Source: Verrucomicrobiia bacterium
GTDB lineage: Bacteria; Verrucomicrobiota; Verrucomicrobiia; Verrucomicrobiales; Akkermansiaceae
NCBI GenBank assembly: GCA_947462875.1
Contig: CANHQJ010000015.1
Location: 1 to 64,000, forward strand
DNA length: 64,000 bases
Direction: 5' to 3'
Shown here: positions 1 through 6,233 of the stretch, in pieces
How positions within the stretch are numbered: position 1 is the first letter of the stretch
Layout of the letters: each line of letters begins with the position of its first letter
Made by a program: the position numbers and the translations under genes
Notes under the pieces: model-generated
Seen by the model: the letters and a program-made list of their open reading frames with translations, nothing else
Told to the model about the DNA's origin: nothing
Database searches by the model: none

Positions 1-136
1 TCGCAATTTTCTCATAGCCTTCCTTCCTCGGAGCGGTTACCCTTTCCGAGTTGGCCTCTGATAGTAGTATGTTCATTTTCATGTTTGGTATTCCTACAGG
101 GGACTTGAACCCCATTTACAACGTGCCCATGCTGGG

Positions 137-225
137 CACACACAAGCCGCTCCATCCAACGGCGGGTAACGCTCCAGTTTGAATTCGGGCTTTCCACCCC
201 GCCGTGGATGAGCTAGACGTTGGCT
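137..225 (+). repeat. attC-like recombination site 1
   Basis: This 89-bp site aligns along its whole length with site 3 (same length). Its arms pair almost perfectly: CATCCAACGGCGGG near 152-165 against CCCGCCGTGGATG near 198-210, with one unpaired A, the extrahelical base typical of attC bottom-strand hairpins. The right core is GTTGGCT (219-225), one mismatch from GTTRRRY. The left core is badly degenerate (CACACAC). The call rests on the hairpin and on the match to site 3. Confidence 0.68.
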
Positions 226-233
226 CAAAAAAT

Positions 234-689
234 ATGGACACGGAATGGCTGACAGAAGCTCACCGGCGATTCGGAGATCGAGAAGACGTCTTCGAGTATG
301 TCGAGACGCCCTACAGCCTGTGGTCTAATCTCCGCGATGTCTTCAAGCGCGCCTACGACTATCCTTACAAGGAGGCGGACATTCGAGCGATTTACGAGTA
401 TGCAGATTGGTCATGCCGACAGCCGCGGGGAGAGACAGCGAAGGATGATCTGCTCACTTGCGTTGCCGTCTGCTTTTACGAGCACATTCCGGAAGTCGAG
501 GCTGCCCTGAAGGATTTGCCAAGATGGTTTAAGCTGAGCGAGGTCATGAACATGAGAGAGATTTTCAGCTACCAAGTCGGTGATGCAGGTTTCGAGCGCA
601 TGTTGGAAGCCTATCCGAAGTCCCAGCGGGCCAAGATCGAAAAGAAGAAGCCAACAAGTCGTGGTAGGCAACCGCGACAACGCCGCTAG
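234..689 (+). CDS. Cassette-encoded hypothetical protein (about 151 aa)
   Basis: I do not recognise this protein. It is soluble, rich in charged and aromatic residues, has no signal peptide or membrane segment, and ends in a basic Lys/Arg-rich tail (KKKPTSRGRQPRQRR). The frame is open from a GTG at 204, but that codon lies inside attC site 1; the ATG at 234, just after the site, is preferred. The stop lies inside the next attC (649-743), so the basic tail is encoded by recombination-site DNA and may not be functional. One gene per cassette, in the direction of the array, is the normal layout. Single-domain unknowns of this size are common in chromosomal cassettes. Function unknown. Confidence 0.7.
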   Translation: MDTEWLTEAHRRFGDREDVFEYVETPYSLWSNLRDVFKRAYDYPYKEADIRAIYEYADWSCRQPRGETAKDDLLTCVAVCFYEHIPEVEAALKDLPRWFKLSEVMNMREIFSYQVGDAGFERMLEAYPKSQRAKIEKKKPTSRGRQPRQRR

Positions 690-743
690 TTCGCTGCGCT
701 CTGGAAAGTCCAGGGCGCGGTTGCCTACACTCAAACGTTGGGC
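649..743 (+). repeat. attC-like recombination site 2
   Basis: This 95-bp site ends in a perfect right core GTTGGGC (737-743, GTTRRRY) and begins with AGCCAAC (649-655, one mismatch from RYYYAAC), which can pair with it. Inside is a perfect 13-bp inverted repeat, GTAGGCAACCGCG at 664-676 and CGCGGTTGCCTAC at 716-728, around a loop containing TTCGCTGCGCTC, a motif often seen in attC loops. It overlaps the 3' end of the upstream cassette gene. It is the best-formed site of the four. Confidence 0.8.
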
Positions 744-783
744 AAGATATTCTCATCATCTCAGCAGCCACATCCAATATCGC

Positions 784-1278
784 ATGCATAGTCTTTGGTT
801 CCGCTCTCGACTGCTTTGGATCGGTCTTTTTGGCTTCATTTTCATCGCGTGTATTTGGATGTCGCCATTCCTCATGGGAGAAGGCAGGTATTTTGGTGCT
901 CGATGGATCGCTCCAGGCGATTTCTATCAAGGCTTTGGCATCACTCAAGACTTCCATCGAATCGGACTTTGGGTAGGAAGGCCGTATGCCGGATGGGGAA
1001 ATCCCATGCGCCAGACAGGCATCACTAGTCTGAGCTTCCCATTTGACCCAATACGACATACTTGGTATGACAATGAACCCGGCCCAATTTGGTTCCAGTG
1101 GGGCACCCCATCTGGAAACAGCTTCACGGTCAAAGTCGATTACTGGTTTTTGATGCCATTTTGTTTTATGGTTTGGGTTGCGTCGATGTTTTCTTGGCAG
1201 CGCCGCAAACGTCGACTTCTTGCGCCGCCGACAATAGAAACCAATGCCCAACAAGCCGGTGCATCCAACGGAGGGTAA
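784..1278 (+). CDS. Cassette-encoded small membrane protein (164 aa)
   Basis: I do not recognise the family. The protein has a hydrophobic segment at about residues 8-28 (LLWIGLFGFIFIACIWMSPF) and another near residues 122-140, followed by a basic cluster QRRKRR that should face the cytoplasm. The roughly 95 residues between are rich in Trp, Gly and Pro and probably lie outside the membrane. The frame is open further upstream, but that part reads through the preceding gene and attC, so the ATG at 784 was chosen. The C-terminus (AQQAGASNGG) is encoded by the left part of attC site 3, a common ending for cassette genes. Function unknown. Confidence 0.68.
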   Translation: MHSLWFRSRLLWIGLFGFIFIACIWMSPFLMGEGRYFGARWIAPGDFYQGFGITQDFHRIGLWVGRPYAGWGNPMRQTGITSLSFPFDPIRHTWYDNEPGPIWFQWGTPSGNSFTVKVDYWFLMPFCFMVWVASMFSWQRRKRRLLAPPTIETNAQQAGASNGG

Positions 1279-1334
1279 CGTCTTTCCTTGAATTCGGGCT
1301 TCCATTCCCGCGGTGGATGGCCTAATCGTTTGCA
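1246..1334 (+). repeat. attC-like recombination site 3
   Basis: Same length (89 bp) and largely the same sequence as site 1. The left core GCCCAAC (1246-1252) matches RYYYAAC exactly. The inner arms CATCCAACGG (1262-1271) and CGGTGGATG (1311-1319) pair with an unpaired base in the left arm. The right core GTTTGCA (1328-1334) deviates from GTTRRRY at two positions; these bases belong to the next cassette in a recombined array, so divergence there is plausible. The GH32 start codon follows 8 bases later. Confidence 0.75.
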
Positions 1335-1342
1335 CACAAAAA

Positions 1343-2854
1343 ATGCATAGCATCCTAAAAACAACACCATATTATTTCCTACTTTGGACAAGTTTATTAT
1401 CTGTGGGATGGGCTGAATCTGATCACGAGCTAAAAGGCACCCCACCATTCAATCGACACTACCAGCCTTCAGATTATCAGGAACCCTACCGACCCCAATT
1501 TCACTTTTCACCCCAAAATGGGTGGATGAATGATGTAAATGCCCTGTGGTATCTCGACGGCAAGTATCACATGCTCTATCAGTGGGGCGTAAAGAATCGA
1601 GATGCTGCCTATGCCAGTTCCGATGACCTTCTCCATTGGACTGATCATGGGCTCGCTTTGATTGGTAAAAGCAGCCATGCCCTTGCAGCAGGCGCAAAGC
1701 AAAATGTATCAGGAGAACAGATTTACTCAGGTAGCGGAATCGTGGTCAGCGGGTCGGCTGCAGAGAAAATCACAGGGTCGCCTAAATCTGCCCTGATCAC
1801 ATTGTATACGGGAACCAAAGTGGGGACTTGCATGGCCTGGAGCAATGATCAGGGAAAGACCTGGAATAACTACCGTAAAAACCCTGTCGCTAATGCCACC
1901 GCCACCGCCGATCCGCGTGATCCCTGTGTCATTTGGCATGGACCGACGAAAAAATGGGTCATGGCCCTCTACGAGCATGGCACCACCTTTTACGGGTCAG
2001 AGGATCTCATCAACTGGGAAAAGCTGAGTAACATTAAGTTTGGTTTTGAATGCCCTGATCTTGTGGAGCTTCCTCTTGATGGTGATCTCAAAAATATGAA
2101 GTGGGTCCTTTATGATGCCGCTGGCAAATACCTCGTTGGACACTTTGATGGAACTAAGTTTACCGATGAGAATGAGACCAAAGAGGGTCTCTTTATGGAC
2201 GTCGGACCTGACTTTTATGCTGGTCAGACCTTTTTTCCATTCACGCTACCTCAGAAGAAATACATCCAACTCGCCTGGATGGACGAGTGGAATGGAGGCA
2301 TTGGCGAGAAGCCCTGGGAGCGGAATGCGACCTTTCCAGTTGAACTGGGTCTGGTCACACGCGACGGTAAAATGCGCGTCACCCAAACCCCTATTGCGGC
2401 CATTAAAGATCTATACGTCGATCCTGCTGTCCAACTAGGCAAGATGGAAGTGGGTACGGATAATATTCTCAGAGATGTGAGATCAAAAACCTTCGATATG
2501 ACTTTCACCATAGATTTGAAGGGTGCCACGGCAGAAAAGATTGAGTTCAAAATCGCGAACGTCAGCTATCAATATGATATCACGTCTCAGACACTCATCT
2601 ATCAAGGCGTTGAGAAAAACAAGTTTGGCGACAAGCAACCGCCTGTGTTACGCCCAGATTCAAACCGGATACTAAAGATACGAATGCTGGTCGATTGGTC
2701 ATCAATTGAAATCTTTTCCGACGGCGGAGTTTTCTCCCTTAGTCAGCAGGTCGCATTCGACCCCAAAGACGAAAGCCTTTATCTGGCTGCCATTGGAGGA
2801 AATGTGAAACTGGTCAACCTTGAGCTTCACAAGATCAAGTCCATATGGCGGTGA
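1343..2854 (+). CDS. Secreted glycoside hydrolase family 32 enzyme (levanase / inulinase / beta-fructofuranosidase type)
   Basis: This enzyme should hydrolyse beta-fructosidic bonds in sucrose, inulin or levan outside the cytoplasm. An N-terminal signal peptide (hydrophobic run about residues 9-22, likely cleavage after GWA) precedes the GH32 five-blade propeller. The three family catalytic blocks are present: WMND at 61-64 with nucleophile Asp64, RDP at 192-194 (transition-state stabiliser) and ECPD at 236-239 with acid/base Glu236. The first block reads WMNDVNA instead of the usual WMNDPNG. The last ~150 residues match the C-terminal beta-sandwich. The ATG at 1343 is chosen; an upstream GTG lies in attC. 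Flanked by attC sites 3 and 4, it appears to be a gene cassette. Lower GC than the backbone supports transfer. Confidence 0.9.
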   Translation: MHSILKTTPYYFLLWTSLLSVGWAESDHELKGTPPFNRHYQPSDYQEPYRPQFHFSPQNGWMNDVNALWYLDGKYHMLYQWGVKNRDAAYASSDDLLHWTDHGLALIGKSSHALAAGAKQNVSGEQIYSGSGIVVSGSAAEKITGSPKSALITLYTGTKVGTCMAWSNDQGKTWNNYRKNPVANATATADPRDPCVIWHGPTKKWVMALYEHGTTFYGSEDLINWEKLSNIKFGFECPDLVELPLDGDLKNMKWVLYDAAGKYLVGHFDGTKFTDENETKEGLFMDVGPDFYAGQTFFPFTLPQKKYIQLAWMDEWNGGIGEKPWERNATFPVELGLVTRDGKMRVTQTPIAAIKDLYVDPAVQLGKMEVGTDNILRDVRSKTFDMTFTIDLKGATAEKIEFKIANVSYQYDITSQTLIYQGVEKNKFGDKQPPVLRPDSNRILKIRMLVDWSSIEIFSDGGVFSLSQQVAFDPKDESLYLAAIGGNVKLVNLELHKIKSIWR

Positions 2855-2874
2855 TGCAATATGAATAGAAAGAA

Positions 2875-2969
2875 ACCGATCAAGTCATGGATGTCAACCG
2901 CCCATAAGCTAATCAATTTCAGCTCATACTTACCGCAATGACGCGGTGACATCACATCAAACGTTCCAT
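2875..2969 (+). repeat. attC-like recombination site 4 (degenerate, end of array)
   Basis: The arms GATGTCAACCGC (2890-2901) and GCGGTGACATC (2943-2953) pair over 11 bp with one unpaired A, the same topology as sites 1 and 3. The right arm is followed by ACATCAAAC and GTT (2963), closely resembling ACTCAAAC-GTT in site 2, and the total length equals site 2 (95 bp). Both cores are degenerate: left ACCGATC, right GTTCCAT. It lies 20 bases after the GH32 stop, where a cassette attC is expected. No further cassette follows. Confidence 0.5.
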
Positions 2970-2999: not shown

Positions 3000-3171
3000 C
3001 TCGCGCACCTCCGGCGCGCTGTGCGTAATGGTGATGAAAGATCCGGTGGTTGCACCACCGGCTACCTTCTTTTGTCCCCTCGGGACGTGGAATGCATCGC
3101 TTGTCACAGCAAACATCGAAGCATCACCGGCTAGTTTCTTATGAGCCGTCGGGACATGATGCGCCTCGCTG
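3000..3171. repeat. Non-coding repeat patch with hairpins
   Basis: The roughly 320 bases between the GH32 stop and the ArsC-like stop hold attC site 4 and this patch, and no gene. A perfect 8-bp hairpin, CCGGTGGT-TGC-ACCACCGG, sits at 3043-3061. Two diverged direct copies of about 52 bp follow, at roughly 3050-3102 and 3119-3171; both contain ACCGGCTA, then TCTT, then a CGGGAC block and end in CGCTTG/CGCTGAG. This looks like a degenerate dispersed intergenic repeat. Confidence 0.55.
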
Positions 3172-5135: not shown

Positions 5136-6233
5136 TCAGGAAGTCACACGCATGGGCATCAGCACGTAGAGGAAAGAACCATCGATGCGGATCACGCCCG
5201 GGCTCATTTCATCGATGAGGTCCAGGTAAACCGTCTCGGTCTCCAGATTGCGCAAGGGAGCCATCATGAACTCGGGATTGAAGGCCACCTGGATCGGCTT
5301 CGCTTCATACTTCACGAGCATTTCCTCACGCGCTTCGCCGACATCCGGCGAGTTGGCGGAGATATCCACTTTGTTATCGGCAAACAAGAGCTTGACCGAG
5401 CTGGACTTATCGGAGGAGAGCAAGGAAACACGACGCACGGTATCAAGCAGCGCCTCGCGAGGCAGCTCGACGCGCTCGTTCGCATCGCTGGGGATCACCT
5501 GGCGGTAGTTCGGATAATTGCCTTCGATCAGTTTGCTGACGAGCAGCGTGTCGCCGATGGAGATGGAAACCTGATTGTCGCTGAGGCGCAGGGTCAGATC
5601 CCCTTCCGTGCCGAGCAGACGCTGCAGTTCCTGGACCGCTTTGGTCGGGATGATCACGTCCGTCTCGTGCGAGGCGGGAAATTCCAGATCGCTCTCCGCC
5701 ATCGCGAGACGGCGGCCGTCGGTGGCGACCAAGGTCATTTTGCCATCGCGGAAGGAAGTGAAAATGCCGTTCAGTACGTAGCGGGTCTCATCCGAGCTGA
5801 TCGCGTAGGAGGTTTTTTTCAAGCCATCGCGCAGATCATTTTGCTGGATGCGGAACTCCTTCGCGCCTTGGAAATCGGGAAAAGGAGGAAACTCGGCATC
5901 GCTGAGGCCGTTCACCTTGAAATGGGCGGCGCCGCTGACGATGGTGGCCACGTGTTTGCTATCGACCGTGACCTCGACCTCGCTCGATGGCAGCTCGCGC
6001 ACGATGTTGACGATTTTTTTCGCGGGCAGGGTCGTGGCGCCCTCTTTGTCCACATTGCAAAGCACCGATCCCGTGATGCCCACGTCCAAATCCGTGGTGG
6101 TGAACTGCAAACGATCTCCCTTGGCCACGATCAGCACATTGGACAAGATCGGAAGCGTCGTGCGACTGCTGACGACGTGTTGAACTTTTTGCAGCCCTTC
6201 GAGGAGCGCTTCTTTGGAGATTCGAAACTTCAT
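5136..6233 (-). CDS. dnaN: DNA polymerase III beta subunit (sliding clamp)
   Basis: The ring-shaped processivity clamp that tethers DNA polymerase III to DNA; it acts as a dimer in the cytoplasm. The 365-aa length is normal and the three clamp domains are recognisable in order, each with a VSSRTTLPILSNVL- or TDGRRLA-type segment. The C-terminus LYVLMPMRVTS matches the conserved end MPMRL that forms part of the peptide-binding pocket. The ATG at 6233 gives the standard N-terminus MKFRISKEAL. It is expressed alone, with its own terminator downstream; dnaA and recF are not adjacent here. The long open frame on the opposite strand over this gene is a GC artefact. Confidence 0.97.
   Translation of the reverse strand: MKFRISKEALLEGLQKVQHVVSSRTTLPILSNVLIVAKGDRLQFTTTDLDVGITGSVLCNVDKEGATTLPAKKIVNIVRELPSSEVEVTVDSKHVATIVSGAAHFKVNGLSDAEFPPFPDFQGAKEFRIQQNDLRDGLKKTSYAISSDETRYVLNGIFTSFRDGKMTLVATDGRRLAMAESDLEFPASHETDVIIPTKAVQELQRLLGTEGDLTLRLSDNQVSISIGDTLLVSKLIEGNYPNYRQVIPSDANERVELPREALLDTVRRVSLLSSDKSSSVKLLFADNKVDISANSPDVGEAREEMLVKYEAKPIQVAFNPEFMMAPLRNLETETVYLDLIDEMSPGVIRIDGSFLYVLMPMRVTS

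Follow-up and report, generated by a model that had tools for sequence, protein, structure and literature searches.

A probable distal integron array in a verrucomicrobial genome with seven attI heads and one detectable integrase

The 64-kb window analysed here opens contig C15 of a genome of 3.95 Mb (39 contigs, ~98% complete). Its left end carries a short run of gene cassettes, very probably the distal portion of an array belonging to a sedentary chromosomal integron, in a genome whose integron system is multi-headed, with one detectable IntI and seven attI heads. An integron is a DNA platform that collects genes; the usual picture is of one integrase, one attI and one array, with integrase-less arrays regarded as headless CALINs. 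An earlier note on the window had proposed a CALIN or integron in a verrucomicrobial chromosome. The genomes of the same genus and family, Akkermansia and Akkermansiaceae, agree with that placement, and what the genome holds goes beyond a CALIN: a full IntI, an attI adjoining it and six further attI heads, although the window itself contains neither intI nor attI.

We propose that three promoterless cassettes at 142-2969 (two genes of no recognised family and a GH32 glycosidase) would have been strung together by an IntI-type tyrosine recombinase, which would recombine attC sites at G^TT, using their folded bottom strands, and that a group IIC intron would have retrohomed, in the antisense orientation standard for such introns, into the R'' box of the first site seen. 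Acting in trans, IntI would move cassettes into or out of arrays at orphan attI sites, or else intI would have been lost after the arrays were built.

Sites and cassettes of the window array

The claim of four attC-like sites in the same direction, two of 89 bp (sites 1 and 3) and two of 95 bp (sites 2 and 4), was borne out by a motif-plus-stem scan, which recovered all of them on the forward strand with the same ends (Table 1). Some details changed. The first five bases assigned to site 1 (137-141, CACAC) belong to the intron on the reverse strand, the attC proper beginning at 142 on the forward strand, and the crossover of this site lies between G219 and T220. A single unpaired A in the inner arms is present in sites 1 and 4, and in site 3 only with mismatches; the stem and core reported for site 2 are both there. 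Genes were said to end at or inside the next site, as those of cassettes A and B do, whereas the GH32 gene stops 21 bp before site 4, where the array ends.

Table 1. Features at the left end of the window
Feature	Positions	Strand	Evidence and remarks
5'-terminal 141 nt of a group IIC-attC intron that continues leftwards beyond the contig	1-141	-	141/141 identity to intron positions 1-141 of C28:1320-3173
attC site 1, intron-interrupted, most of R'' box missing	142-225	+	R2 57.4 bits, E 4.5e-15; fold z -2.1; R' core starts at 219; ends in the earlier note 137-225
Cassette A (TT of site 1 to G of site 2)	220-737	+	start GTTGGCT complements own R'' AGCCAAC, 7/7
Cassette A gene, 151 aa	234-689	+	stop codon inside site 2; no Pfam or NCBIfam match
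attC site 2, perfect 13-bp stem, GTTGGGC core	649-743	+	R1 E 1.9e-6, R2 E 1e-5; fold z -4.6; R' core starts at 737
Cassette B	738-1328	+	start GTTGGGC complements own R'' GCCCAAC, 7/7
Cassette B gene, 164 aa, hydrophobic segments	784-1278	+	stop codon inside site 3; no family match (Pfam, NCBIfam)
attC site 3	1246-1334	+	R2 29.1 bits, E 2.8e-6; fold z +0.8; R' core starts at 1328
Cassette C, 1635 bp	1329-2963	+	bounded by R' cores of sites 3 and 4; start not complementary to R'' of site 4
Cassette C gene, 503-aa glycoside hydrolase family 32 (GH32)	1343-2854	+	Pfam Glyco_hydro_32N 8e-48, 32C 4e-11
attC site 4, degenerate, right-hand array end	2875-2969	+	motif scan 12.6; no covariance-model match; fold z -1.7; R' core starts at 2963

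If IntI built the arrays by cutting at G^TT, the opening TTRRRY of a cassette and the R'' box near its far end would come from one circle and should be complementary, whereas the R'' and R' boxes of one visible site would derive from different cassettes. Across this genome and its relatives, R''/R' complementarity is perfect in 33 of 48 cassettes when read cassette by cassette and in 4/48 when read site by site, and a shuffling control (20,000 rounds) gave a mean of 3.9 perfect pairs and a maximum of 12. Both cassettes A and B show this signature; the same-site comparison matches 2/4 and 1/4 of their variable positions, respectively. Cassette-wise complementarity is the strongest evidence here for integron cassettes.

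The sites have an imperfect inverted repeat, R'' (RYYYAAC) and R' (GTTRRRY) boxes, an L stem with an extrahelical base and a common orientation, all recovered by covariance model at sites 1-3 and weak at site 4; the L stem of attC sites also shows covariation. The model used, R2, was built from seven attC sites (alignment A4) on other contigs and in related genomes, with no window sequence, and its training sites were picked partly by stem complementarity. It was used for an independent test in place of the first model, R1, which had included two window sites; site 2 belongs to neither training set. On both strands of the 64 kb, R2 had no matches beyond sites 1, 2 and 3, and in the 313 kb of the genome searched all its matches with E up to 1 lie inside the arrays described here. 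Three of the four proposed positions are thus matched, and related blocks elsewhere in the genome likewise sit in cassette arrays. Runs were made with filters on, as turning them off worsened the scores of long-loop sites, and an early alignment of nine attC sequences (A1) was dropped for its mixed registers.

Folding the bottom strands gives a narrower result: free energy alone strongly supports site 2 and does not do so for sites 1, 3 and 4. Site 4 is also unmatched by either covariance model, and its motif score of 12.6 stands against 7 matches of 11.5 or more per 183 kb of simulated sequence; its L stem has 11 bp around an unpaired A. We accept site 4 mainly from its position and stem, and it is best called degenerate. 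Elsewhere in the genome, a strong attC (score 20.4) lies ~50 kb from the attI head of C6 (C6:156254-156381; L042 8254-8381) and is possibly a headless CALIN.

The GH32 protein has a signal-like stretch at its N-terminus. GC content is 47-54% in the cassettes and 59% in the rest of the window. On the reverse strand at 5136-6233, a translation resembles dnaN (DNA polymerase III beta clamp), so the array may lie near a replication-associated locus. At 3043-3087 (+) there is a sub-threshold Rfam match to Acido-Lenti-1 RNA (30.1 bits, gathering 37), and a 94-bp stretch 85% similar to it lies close upstream of the attI head on C8 (L064 804-896); similar stretches near two integron loci point to a dispersed element.

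The group IIC intron at the left edge

Positions 1-150 of the window match four other places in the genome, each at or near a contig end. The complete copy on C28 is recognised by Rfam RF02001 (group II, 92 bits) and encodes a 420-aa reverse transcriptase (RT)/maturase with RVT_1 and GIIM domains (TIGR04416, 402 bits), in which no further domain was reported and an endonuclease domain is absent. The best solved relative of this protein is the GsI-IIC RT (1.5e-110), far ahead of LtrA (1.3e-41), and by sequence relationship the intron is of class C. A tRNA was considered for the T-arm-like segment at 80-135; ARAGORN finds none, and the region is the 5' domain of the intron.

In 5/5 copies the 5' junction (marked by a slash) reads TTGT/GTGTGCCC, and an attC, in bottom-strand orientation, flanks it. 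At site 1 the junction falls in R'' on the bottom strand (TTGT/GTGTG), and the intron is oriented opposite to the cassettes. The 3' junctions found (n = 4) all continue with T, and the intron halves comprise three 3' and four 5' halves. Relatives hold four introns with the junction TTGT/GTGTG, one of them beside only a weak hairpin. Group IIC-attC introns insert at TTGT/T in the R'' box on the bottom strand of attC, against cassette transcription, and the protein of one of them has a verrucomicrobial RT as its best relative (PMC7923331). The present intron resembles that group in its bottom-strand TTGT/T site in R'', its antisense direction and an RT-maturase related to the GsI-IIC RT; it differs in that one Akkermansiaceae-type genome holds at least five copies, in five separate attC sites.

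Because the intron is multi-copy, the assembly breaks at site 1, which is the probable cause of the contig end, and the left end of the array is hidden because C15 begins inside it. Repeated targeting of attC sites by a group IIC intron explains the fragmentation of such arrays in assemblies, and under-counting of arrays may follow.

The integrase and the attI heads

IntI is encoded at C1:351769-352716, ~700 bp from the contig end, and scores 340 bits against TIGR02249 (cut-off 265); it is the only protein in the genome above that cut-off, and the other tyrosine recombinases fall below it and were not counted as IntI. It aligns over nearly its whole length to VchIntIA (2A3V), with the catalytic R, K, H-R, H and Y and the IntI-specific insertion. 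Before the aligned part, the protein (L006 1495-2805, -) has an N-terminal stretch of ~110 aa without a Pfam match, which is not a feature of VchIntIA and is conserved in IntI of two relatives, G033 and G048.

We defined attI from its position upstream of intI together with the finding that seven copies all diverge at TACTG^TT, the leader ending in TACGAATAAATACTG^TT. The heads lie on C1, C28, C7, C5, C6, C13 and C8; only that on C1 adjoins an intact intI, lying upstream of it, and the other six are without one. A different sequence follows directly after each head, mostly with a gene start within ~25 bp, and homology among the heads reaches the GTT and, bar up to ~20 bp, ends there. On the left it extends into intI remnants on C13, C5 and C28, and on C6, C7 and C8 it starts 116-175 bp ahead of the crossover, close to an inverted repeat. 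The head is thus laid out over ~120-175 bp as inverted repeat, promoter-like segment and attI. The near-identical heads of C1 and C7 (94.9% over 136 bp) are followed by different first cassettes. Those of C6 and C7 lie inside their contigs and not at the ends, with no IntI in the 1.5-3 kb upstream examined. With seven heads and one detectable integrase gene, most arrays would be served from a distance or left without an integrase, a count subject to the caveat that a second intI might be missing from the 39-contig, ~98% complete assembly.

On C5, C13 and C8, the head is followed by one or two cassettes and then, at the contig end, by the 3' half of the intron, 0.4-1.3 kb from the head. As these contigs end in the other half of the intron that opens C15, the attI head of the window array most likely lies just beyond the contig end, and the array probably continues into C5, C13 or C8, or into a contig absent from the assembly. 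An attempt to pair C15 with one particular head was given up, as the R'' halves do not identify the partner.

We also considered whether the head module might itself be a cassette, with G^TT at either end and G^TTCGTA as its left edge in this genome, and do not advance this reading, since other genera are without the left edge and no attC-like L stem was seen. Across genera the heads keep three TGATATCA-type boxes (L014 1130-1323 and other heads), two of which form the inverted repeat and the third of which lies ~40-45 bp before the crossover; these are possibly IntI accessory sites or an operator.

Among the 145 family genomes surveyed, ~73 copies of the attI 17-mer (at most one mismatch) occur in 30 genomes (2 for a reversed-pattern control), and in about a dozen relatives the 17-mer lies ~550-650 bp from a divergent intI match. 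IntI itself was found in 57/145 at E up to 1e-40, with a maximum of three per genome among the matches listed. In this genome and its relatives, many heads have attC sites downstream, and no head has any upstream on the same strand. Genomes G023, G042 and G120 have several heads and no IntI found, and one IntI was found beside 9 heads in G080 and beside 6 in G126. The closed genome G048 has four heads, two adjoining IntI and two orphan, for which the upstream sequence examined (3 kb and 1.5 kb) contains no intI; one of the orphans is followed by five attC sites. Two heads of G023 (G023a and G023b) agree at 97.8% over 229 bp and have different first cassettes.

Origin and meaning of the heads

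That the repeats are ordinary dispersed inverted repeats between genes, such as terminators or REP-like elements, is hardly credible. The folds of sites 1, 3 and 4, close to those of shuffled sequence, would suit it; the cassette-wise complementarity and the independent R2 matches contradict it, as do conserved R boxes with an extrahelical A, covariation in the L stem, arrays downstream of attI and an intron that targets the same position each time. A plain CALIN, never headed here and seeded by cassette insertion at a secondary, attG-like chromosomal site, is an improbable account of the window array. Its lack of intI and attI is what such an array would show, and CALINs at several loci are described in Xanthomonas (PMC12444791), yet the array is open on the left, inside the intron, and three contigs ending in the other half of that intron each start from a nearby attI head.

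For the orphan heads themselves, decay is a substantial possibility, somewhat short of an even chance: several complete integrons, arising by duplication or by separate acquisition, would have left them as relics, with intI decayed and cassette capture at an end. Remnants of the 5' end of intI upstream of the C13, C5, G023b and G023c heads, and homology on C28 into the intI start region, fit such an origin. Less expected from decay is that the segment from inverted repeat to attI is kept, with intI gone, on C6, C7 and C8 and in the closed-genome heads. Where heads duplicated recently, their first cassettes differ, which suggests that exchange followed duplication, though it may have taken place before loss of a second intI. 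Loss of intI after cassette capture fits the same data, the recent head duplicates less easily, and most intI-less heads could be relics and not active landing pads. More tentatively, the head (inverted repeat, promoter and attI) may in this verrucomicrobial family have become a dispersed landing pad, with copies lacking intI spread along the chromosome and a single IntI loading and shuffling cassettes at all heads in trans. Activity in trans, the assignment of a head to the window array and the way in which heads duplicate are points that we infer.

Neither integrons nor IIC-attC introns are new to Verrucomicrobiota, a phylum already among those listed for integrons (PMC8618304). The system described here is like sedentary chromosomal integrons of the Vibrio and Xanthomonas type, and CALINs, in an IntI with the specific insertion, an attI upstream of a divergent intI, attC sites with R'', L'', L' and R', the G^TT crossover, one promoterless gene per cassette and multiple arrays per genome (as with the several CALIN loci of Xanthomonas, PMC12444791). 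It differs in that intI-less arrays often open with an attI head of their own, and copies of attI number up to 6-9 in a genome where one intI or none was found. In class 1 and 2 integrons, delta-attI-type cassettes also carry attI sequence away from its own integrase (PMC12901181), but there an attI fragment takes the place of attC at the cassette's 3' end, whereas here an attI head starts whole arrays. A search of the literature, subscription papers and preprints excepted, turned up no account of genomes with many intI-less attI heads.

Up to six to nine heads with one or no intI per genome suggest another layout than that of a single array, one in which several arrays each have a promoter-proximal slot. 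If the heads are indeed dispersed landing pads, a cell would have many first-cassette positions, the best expressed ones, and a multi-headed layout would alter how integrase-less arrays are annotated.
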